A stretch of DNA of 24,386 bases from the IMG/VR virus record IMGVR_UViG_3300045970_000204, positions 1 through 24,386 of that record; one strand, given 5' to 3'. Positions 2,859 to 18,653 of this stretch are shown piece by piece. The notes under the pieces are model-generated. The model was given only the letters and a program-made list of their open reading frames with translations, was not told where the DNA came from and searched no databases. Both the position numbers and the translations under genes were made by a program. Source of the stretch: a virus. How positions within the stretch are numbered: the first letter of the stretch is position 1; the number at the start of each line of letters is the position of its first letter.

Positions 2859-3272
2859 ATGCCAATCTTTACAGCACTGGGAGTGAAGGGCGTAGCCATC
2901 CTCGTCCTTCTCCTAGCACTTGGCGGCTGGGCTGCCTACAAGACATACCAAGTATCAAGTGCACAGGCCGAGGCAGCAACTGCCAAGGCTGAGCGCGATG
3001 AGGCCGAAACCGCCCGCGATGAGGCACTGAAGGTCAATACTGCCAATCAGCTTGCCATCTCTCAGCTGCAGAAGGAAAAGGCTGACATTCAGGTAGCCTT
3101 GACCAATCTCGATGCAGATCGCAAGAAGAACCAGAAGGTCATCAATGACCTGTCTGCTGTCATTCGCACAATGGCCACTGACCCAGCCAACAAGGTCCAG
3201 CTCAGCCCGGTCCTTCAAGCTACAGTCGACACCATCCAGAAACAGCGCACGGCACGGGAGGCACTGCCATGA
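2859..3272 (+). CDS. Rz-like: Inner-membrane spanin (Rz-like)
   Basis: A 137-residue protein with a single N-terminal membrane anchor (about residues 10-27, VAILVLLLALGGWAAY region) and no cleavage motif. A long charged Ala/Glu/Lys-rich helix (about 33-110), predicted as coiled coil, follows in the periplasm. This is the type II membrane topology of i-spanins. The next gene starts inside its stop codon (ATGA at 3269) and encodes a small Pro-rich lipoprotein, the standard overlapping Rz/Rz1 arrangement. Together they would join and fuse the inner and outer membranes at the last step of lysis, which implies a Gram-negative host. Assignment rests on architecture and context, since spanins are poorly conserved in sequence. 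Confidence 0.8.
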   Translation: MPIFTALGVKGVAILVLLLALGGWAAYKTYQVSSAQAEAATAKAERDEAETARDEALKVNTANQLAISQLQKEKADIQVALTNLDADRKKNQKVINDLSAVIRTMATDPANKVQLSPVLQATVDTIQKQRTAREALP

Positions 3273-3595
3273 AGCTCCTGCTCTCACTCCTTCTCGTCAT
3301 CGGCCTAACTGGCTGTGAGACCTTCGTCCGCAAGGAAGTTGTCGTCCAGCATGACTACATCGTGCGCAAGGCAACTGACCAGCAGAAGGCACTGCCACCG
3401 TTTCCGGCTCCTATAAATGTCCTCACCGCTGACCAACTTGCCTTGGCACAGTGGATTGCTGACAGCGAAAGGCGTCAGTTAGATCTCGAGTCGATTATTC
3501 GCAGGCTCATCGAGTTCTATGAGGCACCACCACTGCCAGCTGAGACGACACCCGGCCCACCAGCACCAGCCTCGGCGGCCTCTAGTGCCTCATGA
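3269..3595 (+). CDS. Rz1-like: Outer-membrane spanin lipoprotein (Rz1-like)
   Basis: A 108-residue protein with a lipoprotein signal: hydrophobic residues 3-12 followed by the lipobox L-T-G-C ending at Cys16. The mature part has Pro-rich stretches (PPFPAP near 43-48 and a Pro/Ala-rich C-terminal tail) as in other o-spanins. The ATG overlaps the i-spanin stop by four bases and its own stop overlaps the next ATG in the same way, so three genes are coupled. It is longer than lambda Rz1 but within the range of separate or overlapping o-spanins. It would be anchored in the inner leaflet of the outer membrane and bind the i-spanin coiled coil. Confidence 0.8.
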   Translation: MKLLLSLLLVIGLTGCETFVRKEVVVQHDYIVRKATDQQKALPPFPAPINVLTADQLALAQWIADSERRQLDLESIIRRLIEFYEAPPLPAETTPGPPAPASAASSAS

Positions 3596-4587
3596 GCTGC
3601 TGCCCAACAGTCCCTGACATCCAAGCAAGCGGTGTCAGCCCTGATGAGCCTGAGATTGGTGAAGAACCAGCTGTAGATCCAGACAAGCCAGTCGACTGCA
3701 CAGAGGTTGCCAACAGCAACAAGAGCACGACTGGCCAGGTCAACGACAAGACACAGCCGATACCTGACCGTATCCAGCAGCACTCAATCGTGACCAAGTT
3801 TGATGGCACGATCGACATGACCTTCACCACCAGCGGCCCGACACCGGTCACAAGCTGGGTATTCACGCCTTCAAGTTACCCTGACAGCGTTACCACCAGC
3901 GGTGCACGTCTCTCAGGCACCTTCGCTAACAGCCTCATCAACACGCGCTTGGTGATCTCTGTTGAAGCGCTTGGTGCTGCAGGGCGCATCGACAAGAAGA
4001 CCTTTGCCTTCTCACCCTCGAAGTATGACGCCAAGACAGCGGTGAAGCTGCTGCACCCGCTACCGGGATCTGTGGTCACCTCGGGCTACGGTCCTCGAAA
4101 GCCACCTGTTCAGGGCGCATCATCATTCCATGCAGCGCTTGACTTCGCCTACTCAGGTGGGGGCGGCAAGGAGGTCATCTGCAGTGCTGATGGTGAGGTT
4201 GTTTGGGCTGACACGCAGGCCGGTGGTAAAGGCTACGGCAACTACGTCATCGTCCAGCACAAGGGTGCTGATGGTCGCCTACTCATCAGCACCGTCTATG
4301 CCCACCTTGAAAAGATGTACGTGTCCAAGGGACAGAAGGTTGCTGCAGGCCAGTCTCTTGGCAAAGAAGGCAACACAGGCCATGGCTCAGGCAAGCACCT
4401 GCACTTCGAGGTGCGACTGCCCAACAATGCCAAGGTCGACCCTACACCTTACCTCTTTGGCGGCACGAAGGTTGCCATCGTTGTCAACCCTGACAACACG
4501 CCTGGCGCAGGTGGGACGACAGATGCTGAAGGTGACAAGGGTTTGACCCGTGAGCAGGTTACCGCACGCATCACGTGCCAGACCTGA
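3592..4587 (+). CDS. M23 (LytM-type) metallopeptidase, endolysin or tail-associated
   Basis: A 331-residue protein. Residues about 70-142 look like an Ig-like beta domain (TSWVFTPSSYP...SGTFAN). Residues 152-290 are an M23 peptidase domain: SGYGPRK near 164, the zinc-ligand pair H180-x3-D184, YAH238, and H269-x-H271 in KHLHFEV, so all catalytic residues are present. M23 enzymes cut peptide cross-bridges of peptidoglycan. No signal peptide or membrane segment is seen. The start ATG overlaps the o-spanin stop, which favours an endolysin, while the following PAAR-like gene favours a spike-associated tail hydrolase. The sequence does not decide between them. The Ig-like domain and the Asp/Pro-rich N-terminus with a Cys-Cys pair at 3-4 are unusual additions. 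Confidence 0.85.
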   Translation: MSCCPTVPDIQASGVSPDEPEIGEEPAVDPDKPVDCTEVANSNKSTTGQVNDKTQPIPDRIQQHSIVTKFDGTIDMTFTTSGPTPVTSWVFTPSSYPDSVTTSGARLSGTFANSLINTRLVISVEALGAAGRIDKKTFAFSPSKYDAKTAVKLLHPLPGSVVTSGYGPRKPPVQGASSFHAALDFAYSGGGGKEVICSADGEVVWADTQAGGKGYGNYVIVQHKGADGRLLISTVYAHLEKMYVSKGQKVAAGQSLGKEGNTGHGSGKHLHFEVRLPNNAKVDPTPYLFGGTKVAIVVNPDNTPGAGGTTDAEGDKGLTREQVTARITCQT

Positions 4588-4599
4588 TATCCTGGGCAC

Positions 4600-4607
4600 C
4601 GTAAATA
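4600..4607 (+). promoter_or_regulatory. Candidate late promoter (CGTAAATA)
   Basis: A TAAATA-core motif 15 bases before the ATG at 4623, followed by a strong GGAGG ribosome binding site at 4613-4617. It belongs to the same motif family as the other late-type sites in this window but has CG where T4 has TA, so it is weaker. Confidence 0.4.
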
Positions 4608-4622
4608 CGGCTGGAGGTAATC

Positions 4623-4937
4623 ATGGGCAATGTGGTAAGGCTGGGTGATAGATTAGACTGTGGGTCAAAAGCGGCTCAGGGGTCCCCAACAGTCTTCGTC
4701 AATGGAAAGCCAGTCTCTACGCAGACCTACAAGGCTACGACAGGCCATGAGTGCAACCCGCCCTCATTCTTTGTCGGTCCATTCACGGTCTCGGTCTTCG
4801 TCGAAAATGCGCCAGTCACCACGAATGGTGCCAAGGGTCCACCGACTTCGCAGGAAAAGCACAAGTGCACTGCGCTCTACATCGGTCACCAAGGACATGC
4901 TGCACAAGCATCTCCTAACGTATCGTTTGACGCATGA
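4623..4937 (+). CDS. PAAR-like tail spike tip protein (T4 Gp5.4-like)
   Basis: A 104-residue protein with the layout of PAAR-repeat proteins. It starts VVRLGDRLDCGS, then SPTVFVNGKPVS, a His/Cys-bearing segment (GHECNPPSFFVG), a second strand block (TVSVFVENAPV), KHKCTALYIGH and a closing SPNVSFDA. The His and Cys residues are placed to bind the metal that sharpens the tip. Such proteins cap the central spike of contractile tails and help pierce the outer membrane. A strong GGAGG site fixes the start, and its stop overlaps the next gene's ATG by four bases. The position after an M23 peptidase fits a cell-puncturing device. Confidence 0.7.
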   Translation: MGNVVRLGDRLDCGSKAAQGSPTVFVNGKPVSTQTYKATTGHECNPPSFFVGPFTVSVFVENAPVTTNGAKGPPTSQEKHKCTALYIGHQGHAAQASPNVSFDA

Positions 4938-5713: not shown

Positions 5714-5729
5714 CTCAGGCGTCCTGAGT
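5713..5729. terminator. Short hairpin between convergent genes, possible bidirectional terminator
   Basis: ACTCAGG and CCTGAGT (5713-5719 and 5723-5729) can form a 7-bp stem with a three-base loop exactly where two genes meet tail to tail. No T run follows on either strand, so termination is only possible. Confidence 0.3.
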
Positions 5730-6359
5730 AAACCATTCCTGGTACGTGCCAGGATAGGATGCCGGTTGATAGAACCACGGTCCACCATCTTCAGCTGTCA
5801 TGCGAACCGTTACCTTGATCTGCTCGAGTGAGCCAACCAGGATAGGTGAGATAGCTGTGATGAAATGCGGTCCTGCTGGGTAGAGGATCAGAGTGCCACG
5901 CTGCGGAACCAGGCTGAAGTTGTAGGTAGGAAGTTCAAGCTTGCCACCGTACGTTTCAAAGCGTGGATCCAATGGCACACCACCGTTGTAGTCCTTCAGC
6001 CAGATGTAGCCAACAAGATCAACAGCCTTCGTTTTGACCCACTTCTTGCGCAGGTACTCCGAGTTTTCGCAGCCATGCTTGCGGCAAGGCTGCGATGGGT
6101 TCTCGAAGAACTGCTGCAGCATCGGCACTTCCATGCCCTTGACGATGGATGAATAGCGCTCTTCAATCTGCGGAACCAGCGCCTGCATCGCGCCCTGCAC
6201 GAGGGTGATGTGCTCTGGCTCAGAGAGCAGCCGTGAAAATGGTAGGGGGATACCATTCTCATCACGGTCCGGAACGCTTAGCGCAAGTTCCTTGATGAGC
6301 TGCTCACACTTCGCAGGTGAAAGTGCATGCTCGACAACGAGGAAGGGGCTTTTGATCAT
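5715..6359 (-). CDS. 2OG-Fe(II) oxygenase-like protein (prolyl-hydroxylase fold), possibly degenerate
   Basis: A 214-residue protein. The N-terminus (SPFLVVEHALSPAKCEQLI) is the usual opening of phage prolyl-4-hydroxylase-like proteins. The core follows family order: VDLVGYIWLKDYN near 113-125, GGKLEL near 138-143, VPQRGTLILYP at 151-161, the distal PH165F and a basic residue (K182) where the 2-oxoglutarate-binding Arg/Lys is expected. The proximal iron site is normally His-x-Asp, but here the aligned residues are Ala112-Val113-Asp114. It may therefore bind iron differently, be inactive, or be a structural relative. It stands alone in its frame with a TAAATA motif five bases before the ATG and no ribosome binding site. 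The target, if any, is unknown. Confidence 0.6.
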   Translation of the reverse strand: MIKSPFLVVEHALSPAKCEQLIKELALSVPDRDENGIPLPFSRLLSEPEHITLVQGAMQALVPQIEERYSSIVKGMEVPMLQQFFENPSQPCRKHGCENSEYLRKKWVKTKAVDLVGYIWLKDYNGGVPLDPRFETYGGKLELPTYNFSLVPQRGTLILYPAGPHFITAISPILVGSLEQIKVTVRMTAEDGGPWFYQPASYPGTYQEWFTQDA

Positions 6360-6364
6360 GCAGC

Positions 6365-6372
6365 TATTTACA
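6365..6372 (-). promoter_or_regulatory. Candidate late promoter (TGTAAATA) overlapping a stop codon
   Basis: On the - strand TGTAAATA contains the TAA stop of the upstream gene and ends five bases before the ATG at 6359. If used like a T4 late promoter, transcription would begin about at the start codon. No ribosome binding site is visible between the two. Confidence 0.4.
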
Positions 6373-6901
6373 CGAGGCCGATGTGCTTAGCGGTGGCTGG
6401 GTCCAGGATGATGAAGGCGCGGCCTGTAGAAGGGGCGATCTCGGCGTCGACTATCTTACCGCTTTTGCCAACCAGCTGGACAGCAGCGCCGACGGTATTC
6501 GGTTCACGCCAGAAGGTAAAGGCGCTTTCATTCAGCTTGTAGGAGAGCTTGTTGTCACCAGTCAGATCAACAACGCGCAGAAGCGGGAATGTGCGAGTGG
6601 TGTCGAGATAAGCCATGACCTTCTCACCGTCAACCTCGATTTCACCGATGGCTTCAGAGGTTGGCGGCTCTTCAGCTGGAGGTGCTTCAGGCGGTGCATC
6701 AGGTGCAGGCTCTTCCTCAGTTGGCTCAGTGACCGGCTGGTCTTCAACAGGCGCGCTGTCATCGACCATGCCGATGGCCATGTGCAGAAGATTGGCAGCA
6801 GTTGCCTCAACGACCTCTACCTCATGTCCTGCTTCCTTCAGCGCGGCTTCGCCAGCTGAAACGTCTTCACCCGCAGGTGCAAAGATAACGATCTGTGCCA
6901 T
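6368..6901 (-). CDS. Unrecognised two-domain protein with acidic Pro/Glu linker, 177 aa
   Basis: The N-terminal part (residues 1-45, MAQIVIFAPAGEDVSAGEAAL...) looks like a small alpha/beta unit. Residues about 48-85 are a Pro/Glu/Asp-rich flexible linker (EEEPAPDAPPEAPPAEEPP). Residues 86-177 form a second compact, beta-rich part (IEVDGEKVMAYLD, VVDLTGDNKLSYKLN, AFIILDPATAKHIGLV). I do not recognise a family. The GGAG ribosome binding site overlaps the end of the preceding gene, 9 bases upstream, so it is probably co-transcribed with it from the late-type promoter near 7375. The flexible acidic linker and late-block position would suit a capsid decoration or internal protein, which is only a guess. 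Confidence 0.5.
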   Translation of the reverse strand: MAQIVIFAPAGEDVSAGEAALKEAGHEVEVVEATAANLLHMAIGMVDDSAPVEDQPVTEPTEEEPAPDAPPEAPPAEEPPTSEAIGEIEVDGEKVMAYLDTTRTFPLLRVVDLTGDNKLSYKLNESAFTFWREPNTVGAAVQLVGKSGKIVDAEIAPSTGRAFIILDPATAKHIGLV

Positions 6902-6910
6902 GATGGCTCC

Positions 6911-7348
6911 TTATTCAAGTCCCGCAAGGCGACGGAAACGCTTGCGTGTTGCAGCAGCTTCTTCCTTCAGTGCATCACTCTTCTTGGCTTCAACGACTGA
7001 AACTGGCGTGCTGCTCTCAGCCTCACATGCCAGCTTGCACTTGTCGATGCCGATGCGCTTCACGACCTGGTAGGTCTTCGTGCTGTCGCCGCAGTTGATG
7101 CCAACTGAGAAGACGATGTCAAATGCAACGATGGTGTCATTCGCTGCTGCGTAGGTAACTGGAGAGATTGTGTTGGCGTACACCGTGATGGCTGATACAT
7201 CGTAGCCGTTTGTCGGCGCGCCGATGGCGATGCTGCTGTCGTAACTCATCTCAGGTGCAGTCATCACAGACTGCACGTCTCCGCCAACAACGCCCATCGC
7301 TGGCGCGCTGATCATTGGCATGTTCATTTCGTTGGTGGTCTCAGCCAT
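6911..7348 (-). CDS. Unrecognised small probable late protein, 145 aa
   Basis: A Met/Pro/Ala-rich N-terminus (residues 1-35) leads into a beta-rich middle (about 48-95, with ITVYANTISPVTY and VAFDIVFSVGINCG). Then comes KTYQVVKRIGIDKCKLACEAES and a basic helical tail (KEEAAATRKRFRRLAGLE). Three Cys residues (in INCG, DKCKL and LACEA) might form a site or bond, though a phage cytoplasmic protein would keep them reduced. No signal peptide or membrane segment is present. GGAGAG 8 bases before the ATG is a good ribosome binding site, and a TGTAAATA motif lies 27 bases before the ATG. I do not recognise the family. Confidence 0.5.
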   Translation of the reverse strand: MAETTNEMNMPMISAPAMGVVGGDVQSVMTAPEMSYDSSIAIGAPTNGYDVSAITVYANTISPVTYAAANDTIVAFDIVFSVGINCGDSTKTYQVVKRIGIDKCKLACEAESSTPVSVVEAKKSDALKEEAAATRKRFRRLAGLE

Positions 7349-7363
7349 CGTATCTCTCCATCA

Positions 7364-8038
7364 TTAGATAGAGCTATTTACAGCGTGCAGCCAATAGGCG
7401 GCTGCCCGATCCCGCAGCTCTTCCATGTGATCAGCCAGCTTCACCTTGAACTCCATCGGAAACCCAGTGTCTGCGACCATGAGGATGATGCCATCTTCGA
7501 TGGTGGTGCCAAACATCTCATTGTGGGCGAGTGCGTAGAAGGCGAGCTGCACCTTGTACGCGCCGATGTCCTTGTGTCCCTTCAACCGACCAGCGGTCTT
7601 GAAGTCGATGATGACAGGTAGTCGCTTGTAGGTGCCGACGAGATCGCAGCGACCGGCGATCTCGATGCTTGTCGAGTAGAGAGCGCACTCCTGTCCCCAC
7701 ACCTCATCAATCTTGTCGAGCTTCAGCTTGAGCGCCTTGAAGGAAGCCATGTCCGCCTCAGGCACCGAGTGACCGTCGATAGGTGCATCGACCGGTTGCT
7801 TCTTGAGATAGCGCTCAGCCAACAGGTGCACGTTGGTCCCACGATCGGTGGCGGCTTTGCTGATCTCCTGTGCACGTGTGCCTAACGCGTCTTGCCAACG
7901 CTTCAACGAAGCCTTCATCTCAGGCGGCTCAGTGAAGCCCAATATGGTGGTGATCGATGGAAATGCCCCAACTGGGGTAAGATACCAGCGACCACCAAGA
8001 TGTGTTTCTGTCTCAATCTCAGGATACGGATAGCGCAT
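7364..8038 (-). CDS. PD-(D/E)XK exonuclease, RecB/MGME1-like
   Basis: A 224-residue protein with the core of RecB-like nucleases. RGTNVHLLAERYL (66-78) is the family's early helix. E117 in QECALYS, D132 in AGRCDLVG, D145 and K147 in IIDFKTAG form the metal site, and Q164-x3-Y168 in YKVQLAFYALA is the QxxxY motif. The length and SITTILGFTEPPE opening resemble the small phage relatives of mitochondrial exonuclease MGME1, which process single-stranded DNA ends. A role in replication or recombination is likely. The upstream homing-endonuclease gene overlaps its first 20 bases, so no clear ribosome binding site precedes the ATG. All catalytic residues seem present. Confidence 0.8.
   Translation of the reverse strand: MRYPYPEIETETHLGGRWYLTPVGAFPSITTILGFTEPPEMKASLKRWQDALGTRAQEISKAATDRGTNVHLLAERYLKKQPVDAPIDGHSVPEADMASFKALKLKLDKIDEVWGQECALYSTSIEIAGRCDLVGTYKRLPVIIDFKTAGRLKGHKDIGAYKVQLAFYALAHNEMFGTTIEDGIILMVADTGFPMEFKVKLADHMEELRDRAAAYWLHAVNSSI
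7375..7382 (-). promoter_or_regulatory. Candidate late promoter (TGTAAATA)
   Basis: An exact repeat of the octamer at 6365-6372 and extended by a shared AGCT context. It lies inside the last codons of the nuclease gene and 27 bases before the ATG at 7348, which has a GGAGAG ribosome binding site. This spacing fits a normal T4-type late leader. Confidence 0.5.
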
Positions 8039-8672
8039 TGGCTGCTTTCTTTACGAGATAGTGACTGATGCCGAGTGCTTCGCTAGCATCTGTGATTGAG
8101 CGATACTCTACACCACCTACGCATATCTTACGACCCCTCGCTGCACGCATCTTGGCACATACGACCTCACGTTTGTTGGGGTCTCTCTGTCCCAGCTTTA
8201 CCCCAAGACGGCTCAATGACATCTTAGCTTTCGTTTCTGGCGATGCTTTCTTACCAAGCTTTGCCGCTGCCTGCCTTGCTCGCCACTGGTCAGTGCGAGG
8301 TGGTGCCTTCTTACCGCGCCTGCTTTCTGCAGCCTTAGCAATGGTCTCAGGCGACTGCCCTTCGCCAGTGTTGAAGCGCCTGTTTGCAAGTGCAAGATTG
8401 ATGTGCATCGGATTTTTGATTATGTCCAACCTGCGGTGTAGTCGCTCTTCTGCATCATAGGCTTCCTGCCTGGTATCGTATAGCGCAACAACCTGCGTCC
8501 TAAACATCTCAGGATGATGCTCTATCTCTGCTTCCCAGATTTTACGATATCGCCTAGACTTCACGCTGCCGTGATAGCCACGCGCTATTTGCTTGGTGCT
8601 ACTTGACCCAACGTAGAATGGTGGAAGTTTGTTTCCACGATAGGAGGTTAGATAAATGCAGAACTGTTTCAC
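8019..8672 (-). CDS. GIY-YIG homing endonuclease (free-standing, Seg-like)
   Basis: A 217-residue protein. The catalytic GIY-YIG domain occupies residues 4-100: CIYLTSYRG (5-13) for GIY, FYVGSS (19-24) for YIG, then IARGYHGSV with the Arg and His of the motif, and AEERLHRRL carrying the conserved Glu. Residues about 105-165 hold NUMOD3-type repeats (SPETIAKAAESRRGKK, SPETKAKMSLSRLG) that contact DNA, and the C-terminus has a small helix-turn-helix-like part (SITDASEALGISHYLVKKAA, a NUMOD1-type motif). It starts with GTG, overlapping the upstream stop (GTGA), and its stop lies 20 bases inside the next gene. Such enzymes spread themselves between related phages by cutting alleles that lack them. 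The domain architecture is complete. Confidence 0.9.
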   Translation of the reverse strand: MKQFCIYLTSYRGNKLPPFYVGSSSTKQIARGYHGSVKSRRYRKIWEAEIEHHPEMFRTQVVALYDTRQEAYDAEERLHRRLDIIKNPMHINLALANRRFNTGEGQSPETIAKAAESRRGKKAPPRTDQWRARQAAAKLGKKASPETKAKMSLSRLGVKLGQRDPNKREVVCAKMRAARGRKICVGGVEYRSITDASEALGISHYLVKKAANALSVS

Positions 8673-9337
8673 TTTATCCGTTGATTGGCGGCTACTAACC
8701 GCTTCGATGCTGAGCGCATGCGGGTGCGCTTACCCTTGAGGATGCGAATAATCTTCTTCCGACGCCCCGCCAGCCGCAGCTTCATCCGAGTAGACGCCTT
8801 AGCACGTGGCTTTGAGGCGCTCTTCGCTGATGCAACTACACGACCCTTGCGAAAGCCCGACGTCACACGGAAACCACGCTTCAGCTTGTTGCCAGTCCGA
8901 CGGTAGGCGCGCTTGACGCCTTCCTTGATTTCGTTGCCTGGCGCCATAACCTCAGCGTCTGGATCGATTGTATCACCTTCTGCGTCGGTGTCAGGGTTGT
9001 CTTCAGGACCATCGTGCTGCTCAATGCCCATCTCCTTGAGGGTCTTGAGGTCAAGCATGATGCCCTGTGGGTAGGACTTGTCACCATCACGCGACAGGAT
9101 GATGCCGCTGTCACTCACCTCGACATACACAGCGTTGTCATCATGGTCGCGGACCTCACCACTTGCTCCATCCTCAGCAAGGTCAAACAGGATGTTGAGC
9201 TGGTCGATGTCCAACTTCATCGAGAAGCCATCACACGTCAGCAGGATGCCGTGGTGTGCAAGGTGCCCCACATTCCAGCCGTCTTCAGGGACAACTGGTT
9301 GTGGGATCTCCTCAGTGACTTCGCGAATGAGGCGCAT
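8669..9337 (-). CDS. Probable internal head or DNA-binding protein with basic tail, 222 aa
   Basis: I start it at the ATG at 9337, which shares its A with the preceding TGA stop, rather than one codon earlier at a TTG. The N-terminus is MRLIREV, like the short N-termini of the next two genes upstream. Residues about 15-108 form a compact Asp-rich beta/alpha part (GILLTCDGF, AVYVEVSDSGIILSRDG). An acidic stretch (113-135) leads to a strongly basic tail (about 142-222) rich in Lys, Arg, Ser and Ala (KLRLAGRRKKIIRILKGKR). The tail would bind nucleic acid. It resembles the plan of phage head-core or packaged DNA-binding proteins, but I do not recognise a named family. Confidence 0.5.
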   Translation of the reverse strand: MRLIREVTEEIPQPVVPEDGWNVGHLAHHGILLTCDGFSMKLDIDQLNILFDLAEDGASGEVRDHDDNAVYVEVSDSGIILSRDGDKSYPQGIMLDLKTLKEMGIEQHDGPEDNPDTDAEGDTIDPDAEVMAPGNEIKEGVKRAYRRTGNKLKRGFRVTSGFRKGRVVASAKSASKPRAKASTRMKLRLAGRRKKIIRILKGKRTRMRSASKRLVAANQRIK

Positions 9338-10998
9338 CAACGTGTTGGCTGCGTGCCGGTCGGCTCAGTGTTCGGGTTAGCGCGGGTAACACGAGACTTT
9401 GCTTGCGCGAAGGTTGTCGTGAAGCGCTTGACCATTGCCGTCAAGGCACCTGCATTCATCAGCTTGCGATCATTACGGAACTTGGTACCGAGGATCATAC
9501 GTGCATTGCGTGCGAATGCCTCCTCTGGAACTCCAAGCACTTCTACCAACATCATCACAGCATCTGCATACAGATCGGCGCCAGATGGATCGATTGCTTC
9601 AGTCATGGCCTTGTCATCGAGCTCAGCCATTGCGTCCGATGGCTTCAGACCCATGCGAACTGCCAGCATGCGAAGTGCAGCCTTCAACTCACCATTGTCT
9701 TCGATGTCCTTTGATGCCTTGTAAAGGGCGGTGCCGACCACGCCGGGGCCAGTCGTTGAGACCAGGCTCTCAGGCATGCCAAGCTTCACGAGCACTGTCT
9801 CGAGCTGCTTCTGCAGGAAGTTGCCACGCTTGAGGCGGCCTTCTTGGACAGGTGCTGGCTCAGCAGCGATCTTCTTGCCCTTCACAGTAGCAAACAGATC
9901 AAAGAAGGCGTTGAAGGCACGACGCACCGTGAGGTTGGTGCGAAGCAGCTCAGCAGCTTCAGCAACGCTCTCCTCAGCACCAGCGCTGTTGAGCTTGTTG
10001 CCAGGCACGCCAATGAGTGAGAATAATTGGATGATCTTCTTCGGCAGTGGATAGCGCAGCTTCGATGCCAGCGCCTGTTGCTGTGCATCAAGCATGATGT
10101 CATAGCCGTCACCGTCACGGTCACGTGCTCGCTGATTTGATTGTTGCTTGCGCTGGCGCATGCCAGCTTCATCAAGCTGGCTCTCAGCCAGAACGCGTGT
10201 CAGAAACTTGTTACCAATACTCATGTTTGCTCCTTGGGCTTCTACACCCTCTTTGACCTTCTTCATCTTGCTGCCAACGTTTGACAGGTTTGAGTGCTTG
10301 TCGCCCTTCTTAGGGGCAGGCTTTGAAGCCGCTGTCTCTTCCTCTTCAGGCTCTTCCTCAGTAGAGGCAGCTGGCTTCTTCTTTGGTTTCTCAGCCTTCG
10401 GCTCTTTCTCTTCAGGCTCATCAGCCTCTGCCTTGTCTACGGGGGCTTCATCCTCAGGAGATGTGTCATCAGCTGCGATGACGTCCATGTCATCATCGTT
10501 TTCATCATCTGTCGGTGCTTCATCGCCCAGGCTTGGGTCGCCGATGTCAGCGCTGTCGTCGAGATCGACGTCGTCGCCTTCTTCACCAGCAGCGTCAGGA
10601 CCAGTGCCCTTCGGCCAGACCACGTCGACGATGTCGAAGCGAGTAGCCAAGTCATTGATGGCTTCCTCGATGTCGTCTTCCATGCCGAGCATCTTCTTCA
10701 TCTCAGCTTCGAAGGCGTCGGCTTGGGTGGCATTCACGTAGACCTTGACTACCTCACCATCACTGGTCTCCAGTCCGTAGACGACGGTTTCAACGTCATC
10801 ATTCAGGTCACTGGCCTTCTCGAGGTAGTTGGCAACGTCAGATCCGGTAATCTTGCCATCTGCGTTGATGGTGTTGCGCATCAGCGAAAACTTTACATCA
10901 CCAGACCCTGCCTTGGCAGACACGTCATTCTTGCCTGCATCTGAGCCGTCACTCTTCGTGAGGTCATTGGCAGAAAACTCCTGTAGGAGACTTTTCAT
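9337..10998 (-). CDS. Large acidic probable internal head protein, 553 aa
   Basis: The N-terminus MKSLLQEF resembles T4 capsid-targeting peptides (hydrophobic residues followed by x-Glu). Residues 1-128 form a small folded part. Residues 132-222 are extremely acidic (runs such as DDVDLDDSADIGD and TDDENDDD) and then alternate with Lys/Pro (EPKAEKPKKKP). The remaining 310 residues are mostly helical with charged linkers, including FLTRVLAESQ and VKRFTTTFAQAKSRV. There are no enzyme motifs and no Cys. Its ATG overlaps the stop of the 883-aa gene (ATGA) after a GGAG site, and its stop touches the next gene, so all three are made together. A scaffold or internal head protein is the best inference. 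Confidence 0.5.
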   Translation of the reverse strand: MKSLLQEFSANDLTKSDGSDAGKNDVSAKAGSGDVKFSLMRNTINADGKITGSDVANYLEKASDLNDDVETVVYGLETSDGEVVKVYVNATQADAFEAEMKKMLGMEDDIEEAINDLATRFDIVDVVWPKGTGPDAAGEEGDDVDLDDSADIGDPSLGDEAPTDDENDDDMDVIAADDTSPEDEAPVDKAEADEPEEKEPKAEKPKKKPAASTEEEPEEEETAASKPAPKKGDKHSNLSNVGSKMKKVKEGVEAQGANMSIGNKFLTRVLAESQLDEAGMRQRKQQSNQRARDRDGDGYDIMLDAQQQALASKLRYPLPKKIIQLFSLIGVPGNKLNSAGAEESVAEAAELLRTNLTVRRAFNAFFDLFATVKGKKIAAEPAPVQEGRLKRGNFLQKQLETVLVKLGMPESLVSTTGPGVVGTALYKASKDIEDNGELKAALRMLAVRMGLKPSDAMAELDDKAMTEAIDPSGADLYADAVMMLVEVLGVPEEAFARNARMILGTKFRNDRKLMNAGALTAMVKRFTTTFAQAKSRVTRANPNTEPTGTQPTR

Positions 10999-13646
10999 TT
11001 CTTTGCTCCATCCTTAGGACGTGGAAACTTGTAACGGGAGATGTCAGGATTGCGCTTCATCATGACTGTCTTGCGATTGTTCTTGCCGAAGATTGGCTGT
11101 TGATAGCTTGCAACACTGCCAGCGGTAGTTGCTGCGGCAGGTCCGATAGGAGATGCACCACCAGGTCCACCAGCAGCGGCGGCCATGGCGCCAGCAGCTT
11201 CACCATCTTCAGTAATAGCAGTCACTCGTTGTAGCAGCTTCATCTCTTGGACCATCTGATCATTCTCACCATTGGCATTCAGCAGCAAGTTGTCGTAGAT
11301 CACGCGCAGGCGATAGGCAAGTGGTGAGTTAGCAGCAAACTGCTGAATGTAGTAGAACAGCTTGGTGTGGAACTTAACCTTCTCATCAAAGGATAGCTCA
11401 CTGTACCCAAACGTTCCATTCAGGAGTGTATTTACGCGGTCGTTGTTCATTCCTGGTGTTCTGAGCAGGACTGCAAACGCCTTGCGGTGCTCAGCCCATT
11501 CCACCTTGCGGACCTTGCCATAGCTCAGATCCATGTGCAGGAAGCGCCAGTAGCTGGCAGGCACGTGACGCACCTGCTGGAAGATCTGCTTTGCAACCTT
11601 AGGACCAACCAGCTTCTTGACCGCAGGTGTGCCTGAGCGCCATACCACGTAGCCCCAGAAGTTCAGCGGCGACATCTCCTTGTTCCAGCTCGTGAGACGC
11701 ATGTGCGTCTGGTCACGAAGCAGCTTGATGCCGGTGGTGTCATCAGCTTGGTAGATGATCGAGGCCATCATGTAAACTGCCAGATAGGTGTTCAGGATTG
11801 TCCATGCGTCACGGCCATGGTACTGCGATACGTCGGTGACGATGCGCTTCTCAGCCAGCATGTGCTCACTGAGCGTCTTCACAAACTCGATGTCGCCGCC
11901 CCAGTCAACCTCCATATCAGCAAGCGCATCCCACAGCGCGTCCTCATGCACTGACTGATCTGTCTTGATCTCAAACTCATAGCCACCGCCCTCAGCATCA
12001 TCGCGGATACGCTTGAGCTTGACGCCCTTCTTTCCACCAATCGTCTTTGAAGCCAACGCAGTCATGATGCGGTGCTCTTGCACATTCGCCTCATCTGGGT
12101 TTGAGCTGGCAGTAGGGCTTAGGGTGATGTTCCAGATCCTATCGCCCTTGCTTTCGGCAACTGGTTCGGTTGGCTCAGCAGGTTCAATCTCATGCACTGC
12201 CTTGGCGATCTTGCCATACAGCAGGGCTACCAACTGCACGAGGCTCTTGGTCTTGGCAACCTTCTCACCCAGCTCGGTGACATCTCTCTTGGCTTCAGCG
12301 TACGCAACGAGCGTACGACGAATGACCTCGGCGCTGAGACCCATCGTCTTGCCGCTCTTGAGCTTCAACTGAAATTCATCCTTGTTGGCCTTGAAGTCCT
12401 TCAGTGACTGCTCGAGCTCAGCCTTGGTGTTGTCGATGAGCGCGGCGATCTTGGTCTTGATGCCACGATAGTCATCGTTGTTGGTCAGTTCCTTGGCTAC
12501 GTTCTTGACGGTCTCTTCAGCCGTTGTGCCCTTGACTGTCTGAAAGATCTTCTTGGCAGTCTGGGTGCGTGCCAGATCCTGGTTGCCCAGCAGATCTGCG
12601 ATCGTGATCTTCAGCTGACCCAGCATACCGCCACGTGCCTCAAGGCTGGCCTGTGGGTCGAGTGTCTTGATGGTGCCTGAGATTGATCCGCGAACTGCAT
12701 GGTTGAACTGGTTCATCGTCGTGAACGTGTCCTTATCAACCAGCTTGACCTGCTCACCATTGTCTGGGTCGCGAAGCACAACACCCTCGACGCCGTTGTC
12801 CTCATCTGCTGAGAGGTCATCTGCTGCGAGTGGGGACTTGATCTTGCTAACGAACTTGTCGAGCAGCTCCTTCTTGATTGGCAGCTTGAAGTCGGTCAGG
12901 ATCTTGGCCAGGATCTGCGACTTCAGCACCTTCGCGGCTGGGCGGATCTCCTTGTCGATAGCACCGAGCGATGCAGTCGCCAAGTCAAAGTTGGTGATGG
13001 TCTTGCCCTCAAGTGGGGCACGCTGACGCAGATAGTCCTGCAGTTTTGCGAGCTGCTTTGCTACGTCAGTGGTCTTCAGATGGGTTGTGTCTAACTTCTG
13101 CACACCCACAAACTGGAAGAGGACATCAGTAGGAGTGAGCTTCAGGTTGACGCCATCAATGGTGTCGACGGTCTGAACGCTGACGGTGACTGTCGTGTTG
13201 TTGAAGCTGTTGGCCAGCTGGTCTACGATGGCATCAGGGGTGCCCTCAACACCGCGCAGGAAGGCGATGTAGTTACGACCACCAGCGCCGTAGGTGACAG
13301 CATTCGGTTGACGCCCGTAGAGGACCTCGATCTCGACCGTAGATCCTGGATTGAGGACCTTCTTGATCTCACTTTCCTTAGCCTTCAGCGCCGCATGGGC
13401 AGCCCGAAAACCGTTGTAGGCAGCGAAGTACGGATACTCCTTCTCCTCGTACATGTTCTCAGCGTTCTTGCGCTTGCCTGCACGGGATGTAAACAACCGA
13501 CCATCGTCATCGATACCGAACCACAAATTGGCACCATCGAGTTTCTCGGCTGCTTGTAGTTTAGCCAGGTTGCCCACCACCTTGATGAAGGTCTGGAGAT
13601 CCAGATCTTCCAAATGTTGGATGCCTTCGGTGATTAGTTTGATCAT
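10995..13646 (-). CDS. 883-aa protein with N-terminal ligase-type nucleotidyltransferase domain
   Basis: Residues about 25-310 carry the covalent nucleotidyltransferase signature of ATP-dependent DNA/RNA ligases. Motif I is EK35-L-D37-G38 with the candidate nucleophile Lys35; motif Ia is TS54-R55-AGK; a motif III-like EIEVLYG lies at 105-111; motif IV is E287-G-V-V-L-R; and motif V is VK301-L-V. All key residues are present. The long remainder is mainly helical (coiled segments about 370-480, a hydrophobic helical part about 610-810), then an Ala/Gly/Pro-rich low-complexity stretch and a basic tail. The N-terminal MIKLITEG matches the T4 prohead protease cleavage rule (L/I-x-E, then G/A), suggesting targeting into the head. 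The substrate is unknown. It is much longer than known phage ligases, so the C-terminal two thirds are probably structural. Confidence 0.65.
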   Translation of the reverse strand: MIKLITEGIQHLEDLDLQTFIKVVGNLAKLQAAEKLDGANLWFGIDDDGRLFTSRAGKRKNAENMYEEKEYPYFAAYNGFRAAHAALKAKESEIKKVLNPGSTVEIEVLYGRQPNAVTYGAGGRNYIAFLRGVEGTPDAIVDQLANSFNNTTVTVSVQTVDTIDGVNLKLTPTDVLFQFVGVQKLDTTHLKTTDVAKQLAKLQDYLRQRAPLEGKTITNFDLATASLGAIDKEIRPAAKVLKSQILAKILTDFKLPIKKELLDKFVSKIKSPLAADDLSADEDNGVEGVVLRDPDNGEQVKLVDKDTFTTMNQFNHAVRGSISGTIKTLDPQASLEARGGMLGQLKITIADLLGNQDLARTQTAKKIFQTVKGTTAEETVKNVAKELTNNDDYRGIKTKIAALIDNTKAELEQSLKDFKANKDEFQLKLKSGKTMGLSAEVIRRTLVAYAEAKRDVTELGEKVAKTKSLVQLVALLYGKIAKAVHEIEPAEPTEPVAESKGDRIWNITLSPTASSNPDEANVQEHRIMTALASKTIGGKKGVKLKRIRDDAEGGGYEFEIKTDQSVHEDALWDALADMEVDWGGDIEFVKTLSEHMLAEKRIVTDVSQYHGRDAWTILNTYLAVYMMASIIYQADDTTGIKLLRDQTHMRLTSWNKEMSPLNFWGYVVWRSGTPAVKKLVGPKVAKQIFQQVRHVPASYWRFLHMDLSYGKVRKVEWAEHRKAFAVLLRTPGMNNDRVNTLLNGTFGYSELSFDEKVKFHTKLFYYIQQFAANSPLAYRLRVIYDNLLLNANGENDQMVQEMKLLQRVTAITEDGEAAGAMAAAAGGPGGASPIGPAAATTAGSVASYQQPIFGKNNRKTVMMKRNPDISRYKFPRPKDGAKK

Positions 13647-13650
13647 CGAC

Positions 13651-13658
13651 TATTTATG
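13651..13658 (-). promoter_or_regulatory. Candidate late promoter (CATAAATA) directly before the start codon
   Basis: CATAAATA on the - strand, four bases before the ATG at 13646 and just after a hairpin. No ribosome binding site lies between. A T4-type start point would fall at or next to the ATG. Confidence 0.5.
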
Positions 13659-17879: not shown

Positions 17880-18653
17880 ATGCACCCTGTTGATAACAAG
17901 TACACACACTGGTATTACGCACTTATGCAGAAGCGCAGGAATACACCACTATTGAAAGTTGGTGGATATTGCGAGAACCATCACGTTCTACCAGAATGTC
18001 TCGGCGGTCCCAATACCAAGGAGAACATGATAATGCTCTCAGCACGAGAGCATTATGTAGCGCACTTGCTACTGACAAAGATGTTCGATGGCGATGCTAA
18101 AAAACGGATGCATTATGCGTTCTATTCAATGCGTCGCAAGAAAGCCGGCATGGTGCGATATGAGCCCAATAGTCACATTTATGAGATACTGGTCAAAAAG
18201 ATTGATAGGGCCCCATCAGAAGAAACACGCAAGCGCATGCGTGATAGCGCAAAGCTTAGACCCCCGCAAACAGAAGAAACTCGACAACTTCGAAGCGCAG
18301 CAGTAAGGGCCTCATACACCCCTGAACTTAGAGCATCACGTTCTGCTCAGTTCAAGGATAAACCTTTTACAGACCAACACCGTCGTAACTTGTCAGCAGG
18401 TCAGAAGGGTAAAGTTATGTCAGAAGCGTTCATTGAATATTGCCGCCAGCGCAGGGGCGAGAAGAACGCTCGCTCTAAAACCTGGGTAATATCATCGCCA
18501 ACCGGTGAAATCTTTACCACCAAAGCTATGGGTGATTTCTGCAATCAGCATGGCTTAGCTTATAGTGCATTTAGAAACCGGGCACGCGAAAATAGTCGTA
18601 GCCCGCTGGTGAAGGGACCGTCGAAGGGCTGGTCCCTCCTATCCTGCGCCTGA
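17880..18653 (+). CDS. HNH homing endonuclease with NUMOD3 repeats
   Basis: A 257-residue protein. The HNH catalytic unit lies at about residues 30-65: ENHHVLPECLGGPN with the His pair 34-35, N49 region, and REHYVAH with H58/H62. This is the form typical of phage free-standing HNH enzymes. Residues about 110-205 hold NUMOD3-like DNA-contact repeats (SEETRKRMRDSAK, TEETRQLRSAAVR, TDQHRRNLSAGQKGK). The C-terminus (FTTKAMGDFCNQHGLAYSAFRNRAR) looks like a NUMOD1-type helix-turn-helix. It is the only + strand gene in the replication block and is visibly richer in A and T than its neighbours, both signs of acquisition. A GGAGAG site fixes the start. It would cut related phage genomes that lack it. 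Confidence 0.88.
   Translation: MHPVDNKYTHWYYALMQKRRNTPLLKVGGYCENHHVLPECLGGPNTKENMIMLSAREHYVAHLLLTKMFDGDAKKRMHYAFYSMRRKKAGMVRYEPNSHIYEILVKKIDRAPSEETRKRMRDSAKLRPPQTEETRQLRSAAVRASYTPELRASRSAQFKDKPFTDQHRRNLSAGQKGKVMSEAFIEYCRQRRGEKNARSKTWVISSPTGEIFTTKAMGDFCNQHGLAYSAFRNRARENSRSPLVKGPSKGWSLLSCA

Follow-up and report, generated by a model that had tools for sequence, protein, structure and literature searches.

The window analysed here is the complete virus record IMGVR_UViG_3300045970_000204, 24,386 bases from a T4-type large phage, and its gene at 10995..13646 on the minus strand, delimited by open reading frame (ORF), translation and homologs, encodes an 883-amino-acid (aa) precursor. On balance, we favour a reading in which this precursor delivers head cargo, an RNA-repair ligase that is packaged in the capsid and ejected. 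Encapsidation of the ligase appears highly probable from its sequence, and RNA ligation by its ligase module is probable. An earlier sequence-only reading had delimited the ORF exactly and left its strand unstated. The family B DNA polymerase, primase and replicative helicase genes also lie on the minus strand of the window.

Using tblastn, we found homologs in PA5oct-like Pseudomonas phages, Sinorhizobium phage Phosso and Agrobacterium phage Atu_ph07, with 26–31% identity and recorded as hypothetical. In UniProt the protein from Atu_ph07 already bears the name 'RNA ligase', and IMG/VR contains many more homologs of the gene. In the tree, proteins with an N-terminal leader or a fusion form one clade (18 rows, support 98/96) and leaderless proteins form its sister (10 rows, support 98/99).

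An AlphaFold2 model of residues 1–499 (predicted local distance difference test score (pLDDT) 89, predicted template-modelling score 0.83) adopts a covalent-nucleotidyltransferase fold, and this model and its Foldseek matches confirm the fold that had been proposed from motifs. The first-ranked PDB match is the ligase domain of the fungal tRNA ligase Trl1 (probability 1.00, E 1e-3), followed by African swine fever virus (ASFV) DNA ligase, T4 Rnl2 and human DNA ligases, with capping enzymes lower. Template-modelling (TM) scores are low (0.29), and placement within the nucleotidyltransferase superfamily is therefore tentative. Membership of the superfamily itself is indicated by the motifs and the modelled fold alike. 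The nucleotidyltransferase domain, residues 8–304 (12735..13625; minus strand, like all features of this gene), holds motif I, E34-K35-L-D37-G38 (13533..13547), with E, K, D and G invariant in 21 aligned sequences; motif III, EIE107VLYG (13314..13334), with E107 invariant; motif IV, E287-G-V-V (12777..12788), with E287, G288 and V290 invariant; and motif V, K301-L-V-D-K305 (12732..12746), with K301 and D304 invariant and the form KxV-D-K where KxK is usual. R55 is conserved in more than 90% of the same sequences. Every motif that the sequence-only reading listed (K35-L-D-G, S-R55, EIE107VLYG, E287-G-V-V and V-K301) is present and conserved in the 21 homologs, and K35, D37, G38, E107, E287, G288 and K301 are also invariant across 7 homologs of 23–62% identity. 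Because these key residues are invariant across both sets, the motifs are not a matter of chance. That the active-site residues do not vary among proteins only about 25% identical speaks against a structural reuse of the fold, once offered as an alternative.

Past residue 305 the model is helical apart from two very short strands, with no oligonucleotide/oligosaccharide-binding (OB) barrel. By its modelled secondary structure, residues 305–487 (12186..12734) form the all-helical C domain of the ligase module. The earlier account of over 570 further residues of helical and low-complexity character holds for a helical domain at 600–835 and a Gly/Ala-rich, basic tail at 836–883; residues 305–487 belong to the ligase itself. 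An OB fold is required in ATP-dependent DNA ligases and capping enzymes, and RNA ligases of the Rnl1/Trl1/Rnl2 kind fit an all-helical C domain. The modelled part after motif V fits these RNA ligases, not DNA ligases or capping enzymes, and RNA sealing is plausible. We rejected identification as a DNA ligase or a capping enzyme, and the proposed capping function is disfavoured because the model lacks the OB fold. The Pfam RNA_ligase model (PF09414) matches the window protein below threshold (20.7 bits against a gathering score of 27) and matches 19 of the 21 family members at sub-threshold scores, with a best E of 7e-6. Scans with PHROG and NCBIfam returned no named family covering the whole protein.

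Profile–profile comparison links the ligase family to DUF6267 (PF19782; 97.1%, E 8e-11) over motifs I–III. Among cyanophage records, 471 have a tblastn match to DUF6267. A direct PF19782 match was obtained for one of the 21 family members, at an E of 0.011 that falls short of the cut-off, and DUF6267 was rejected as the family itself, being distant kin by profile–profile comparison only. Motifs I, IV and V are retained in these distant relatives, whose genes often adjoin cytidylyltransferase genes, and motif V of the window family departs from KxK, all of which would suit a covalent nucleotidyltransferase without ligase activity, one serving to modify proteins or small molecules or to cap RNA. 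We consider such an enzyme unlikely, however, since the best structural matches are RNA ligases and the OB fold that capping enzymes need is absent from the model.

The protein begins MIKLITE/GIQHLEDL, the slash marking the predicted cut, with L/I-x-E standing before A, G or S. T4 gp21 cuts after L/I-x-E, T4 Alt has a 7-residue propeptide, and ten N-terminal residues of IPIII are enough for packaging (PMC9026906). Residues 1–7 (MIKLITE; 13626..13646) form a predicted capsid-targeting leader, cut after E7. The motif [LIV]xE/[GSA] stands at the matching N-terminal position in 14 contigs, the window included, with E as the sole constant residue. Leader ends among the relatives read LLSE/G, IILE/S, MLIE/S, VLME/A, SVFE/G, LLVE/G, LITE/G, KISE/G, RLSE/S, VLLE/S, ILTE/G, FLSE/G and ALSE/S. 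Leaderless homologs (loci L006, L083, L014 and L028, and Phosso) start at the cut point or within 1–2 residues of it, and the Atu_ph07 homolog also starts there if the upstream ATG at L003:6016 is used, not the annotated start. Because these homologs start at the cut point, the predicted leader is a tag added directly in front of the enzyme proper. The prohead-protease-like start MIKLITE/G noted in the sequence-only reading is real and conserved in position.

Leader-like starts also occur in other genes of the relatives. Beside the primase gene of L006, four small consecutive genes (3058–4809) resemble a cassette of cargo genes targeted to the head. Their starts include MKLEQLFE/A, MKVAELFE/A and MGRLMKVSDLFE/G, together with MKLQELFK/S, which has no E; the second gene has a weak ART-PolyVal match (PF18760, E 0.0056). 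Downstream of the ligase module in Atu_ph07, gp059–gp062 (L003 9694–12336) are tandem paralogs of PHROG 11975 with the leader-like starts MRWHQLIE, MKWHQLTE/A and MRWDQLTE/A.

An S77 gp21-type protease (PF03420) is encoded in seven of nine relatives' records, all the larger ones: those of PA5oct, Phosso and Atu_ph07 and the parent records of L005, L006, L014 and L028. The two records without it are short, and the window is a 24-kb fragment. Major capsid proteins of these relatives carry LFE/S, LLE/G, LTE/G or LCE/G near their starts. A second class of candidate sites lies inside the precursor. Fifteen proteins have the ligase module fused to a second helical domain, and [LIV]xE[AGS] occurs in 11 of these 15 junction linkers, where the remaining sequence of these proteins predicts 0.36. 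In the window protein this is VAE498/S499 (12150..12161), a predicted prohead-protease site between the ligase module and the remainder. It is followed by an insert, residues ~503–595, which L005 alone shares.

A ligase that survives among active head protease would be predicted to have a motif-free core. Ligase cores of the leader clade (19 proteins with L021; 8,824 residues) contain 2 motifs against 32.2 by shuffling, whereas those of the leaderless sister clade contain 32 against 18.2. Seven control motifs in the leader-clade cores occur at 0.34–1.87 of expectation (the reversed motif at 1.87 of the shuffle mean, the others at 0.34–0.81), compared with 0.06 for the true motif and 0.09 for its L/I-only subset. 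An artefact of motif shape was rejected as the cause, no control nearing 0.06. Genome-wide scarcity was also rejected, the helicase of the same contigs having 22 motifs against 23.6 expected and the primase being enriched (36 against 12.5). The depletion is strong evidence, although not fully independent because the leader clade is a single lineage.

A T4-late-promoter-like box, CATAAATA (13651..13658, minus strand), lies 4 nucleotides (nt) before the ATG and is equally placed in L005, L080 and L084; the late-type promoter box described earlier is real. YATAAATA is found 30–42 nt upstream of the ATG in L006, L010, L011, L012 (counted once) and L083, while none of ten sister-clade genes has a late box within 60 nt upstream. 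This placement fits late expression alongside head genes. With the box 4 nt before the ATG, as in the window, L005, L080 and L084, transcription would start approximately at the start codon, and a leaderless late mRNA from the window gene is possible. CTAAATA occurs at a nearly matching position in L085–L088 and L090.

The ligase gene has a frequent partner. In the leaderless PA5oct, Paride, Phosso and Atu_ph07 and in ten leaderless IMG/VR contigs, a gene for a Pol-beta-like protein closely follows it, and the GS, DxD and QxD motifs typical of the Pol-beta superfamily are invariant in this protein. The partner gene of leader-clade genomes is located elsewhere, and its product has a leader in all six in which it was found (MKLKQLFE/AKS, MKLQDLFE/AKS, FKQFLTE/GGK, FKQFLLE/GGK, LIELLCE/GGK and LKQFLTE/GGK). 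Leaderless partner homologs start M-GG or M-SG exactly at the cut point. The PA5oct partner, gp253, is annotated as structural from electrospray ionization tandem mass spectrometry (ESI-MS/MS). The pairing with a Pol-beta-like gene and the ASFV and human DNA ligases among the PDB matches would also suit a packaged and ejected pair that acts on DNA, filling gaps and sealing nicks of the incoming genome like ASFV polymerase X and ligase. This is improbable, however: the model lacks the OB fold after motif V that ATP-dependent DNA ligases need, the best structural and Pfam/PHROG matches are RNA ligases, and the GS-GK-SGDID motif of the partner looks template-independent.

The remainder of the precursor is dominated by residues 600–835 (11142..11849), modelled as all-helical with a core pLDDT above 90 and present at 15 related loci. 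The second-best Foldseek match in BFVD, and the best named one, is a 262-aa Atu_ph07 protein (A0A2L0UZB0; probability 1.00, TM 0.57), whose length corresponds to gp064, a separate gene two genes downstream of the ligase in that phage; the tie to gp064 is by predicted structure only. Residues 836–883 (10998..11141) form a Gly/Ala-rich and then basic tail, for which the model is unconfident. The next gene (9337..10998, minus strand), with a 4-nt overlap, encodes a 553-aa acidic protein. L010, L011 and L012 lack the helical domain, and there a single ORF of >1,100 aa joins the ligase module directly to the acidic protein. Across 18 relatives of the acidic protein the protease motif is enriched (77 against 44 expected), as would be expected of a core protein that is cut into pieces. 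The operon continues with a 223-aa protein that has a basic C-terminus (8669..9340, minus strand) and is conserved in L005; library profile scans gave no family match for it.

The sequence-only reading had taken these two downstream genes for head proteins, a view that gains indirect support only and none from homology. Hidden Markov model and hhalign comparison of the helical domain and the acidic protein with the mass spectrometry (MS)-tagged proteins of PA5oct found no homology link, and PA5oct gp255, considered as a counterpart of the C-terminal half, was rejected for lack of similarity. The fusions to the helical domain and, in L010–L012, to an acidic protein whose protease motifs recall a degraded core protein could also mean that the enzyme sits in the head and acts during head assembly, or as a catalytically used core component, and not for the next host. 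We regard this as no more probable than action on DNA, as the conserved cuts would release an intact ligase with a motif-poor core, suggesting that the whole enzyme must survive maturation. The leaders, junction sites, motif avoidance, acidic-protein fusions and leader-tagged partner together favour the earlier proposal of an enzyme carried in the capsid and injected.

For the packaged RNA-repair ligase, we propose the following model. The MIKLITE leader would dock the 883-aa precursor to the prohead core, where the S77 prohead protease would cut after E7 and at linker residue E498. These cuts would free a ~490-residue ligase module, consisting of the nucleotidyltransferase and helical C domains, from the helical C-terminal part. 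The freed ligase would remain in the head and enter the next host with the DNA. There, ahead of any new phage protein synthesis, K35 would take AMP from ATP and broken RNA would be sealed, the likeliest substrate being tRNAs that anti-phage nucleases of the host have cleaved. The Pol-beta-like partner, with its own leader and encoded elsewhere in the same clade, would restore lost nucleotides. More generally, and tentatively, some T4-type large phages may ship a leader-tagged ligase and an end-restoring Pol-beta-like enzyme in the capsid, reversing tRNA-cutting defences from the moment of injection.

Several observations weigh against a packaged RNA-repair ligase. Motif V has no second lysine of the KxK form, and a PDB sequence-profile search with the ligase alignments gave only chance matches and no solved relative. 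None of the library models supports the Pol-beta assignment of the partner, which comes from motifs only. The leaderless PA5oct ligase, gp256, is without the MS tag that its neighbours carry, and the published virion list of S-CREM2, which includes a cytidylyltransferase with the leader MKNFSSFLTE/A, does not contain its DUF6267 protein, a more distant relative (PMC10665884). The avoidance test is limited by resting on one lineage. Finally, 5 of 10 leader-clade records encode one to three ordinary PF09414 ligases besides, so that a need for repair is not obvious and the tagged ligase is an addition in those genomes. An unpackaged RNA ligase of the cytoplasm, with leader and linker motifs that arose by coincidence, would suit the shortness of the four-residue motif, the leaderless relatives (L006, L014, L028, Phosso and Atu_ph07) and the untagged PA5oct homolog, but it is the least probable account given the position-exact leaders in 14 contigs, the junction enrichment, the clade-specific avoidance and the leader-tagged partner.

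If the packaged-ligase reading is true, phages could answer tRNA-cleaving defences ahead of any phage gene expression. Position-exact leaders combined with protease-motif avoidance in the mature core would also provide a reusable, sequence-only flag for packaged enzymes.

Other genes of the window may meet the same protease. The products of two small conserved genes on the minus strand, 6368–6901 and 6911–7348, are enriched in the protease motif (16 against 6.2 and 15 against 5.4 expected) and are possible cut core or head proteins. A 214-aa protein (5715–6359, minus strand), kept in 12 leader-clade contigs, has 0 motifs against 6.8 expected and may also meet the prohead protease. Judged by eye, GIY-YIG-like and HNH-like homing-endonuclease-type genes (8019–8672, minus strand, and 17880–18653, plus strand) break the conserved gene order, and 3592–4937 (plus strand) encodes an M23-peptidase-like and then a PAAR-like protein, probably of the tail or baseplate.

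The known phage RNA ligases are repair enzymes that are newly synthesized, and known head cargo comprises ADP-ribosyltransferases, nuclease inhibitors and RNA polymerases. We found no description of an RNA-ligase-like enzyme as head cargo in the open-access literature searched; leader-tagged, ejected head proteins and phage RNA ligases are each already known, and their combination did not turn up in that literature. Like Rnl1/Trl1-type RNA ligases (PF09414 and relatives), the window protein has motifs I, III, IV and V and a helical C domain, and it differs from them in its Pfam score below the cut-off, its KxV-D-K motif V and its head-type precursor. PA5oct gp256, Paride_0025, Phosso 446 and Atu_ph07 gp066 share the orthologous ligase module and the replication-gene context, but are stand-alone, leaderless and beside the Pol-beta-like gene. 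DUF6267 proteins of T4-like cyanophages and pelagiphages share an H-[LI]-E start (H-L-E-x-L-E-D), KxDG, P-N-x-[IV]-x-Y, EG[FY]V and KLVD[RK] with the window family, and mostly lack a strict leader; in HTVC008M the gene follows the primase-helicase. Neighbours of DUF6267 genes in cyanophages and a pelagiphage (L051 and L053–L057), including cytidylyltransferases, often start with T4-type leaders (such as MQGFKTFLSE/A, MKKFSAFLNE/A and MNFSEFLE/A), which suggests that the packaging of nucleotide-transfer enzymes in heads is widespread.

The pairing with a Pol-beta-type nucleotidyltransferase recalls RlaP with RNA ligase, a predicted tRNA-repair pair proposed as a repair system for jumbo phages (PMC7824862). 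Unlike RlaP, the partner here matches no library model, and both enzymes carry a head leader in one clade. The closest parallel for the packaging route is T4 Alt and IPI–IPIII, which carry a capsid-targeting sequence, are processed by gp21 and are ejected. They share with the window protein a short N-terminal leader ending in L/I-x-E, the 7-residue Alt propeptide equals the predicted leader in length, and the relatives of the window phage have a T4-type protease and capsid protein. The T4 cargo is an ADP-ribosyltransferase or nuclease inhibitor, whereas the window cargo, whose packaging is predicted from its sequence, is a ligase-type nucleotidyltransferase with an extra internal site that would split the fused protein.
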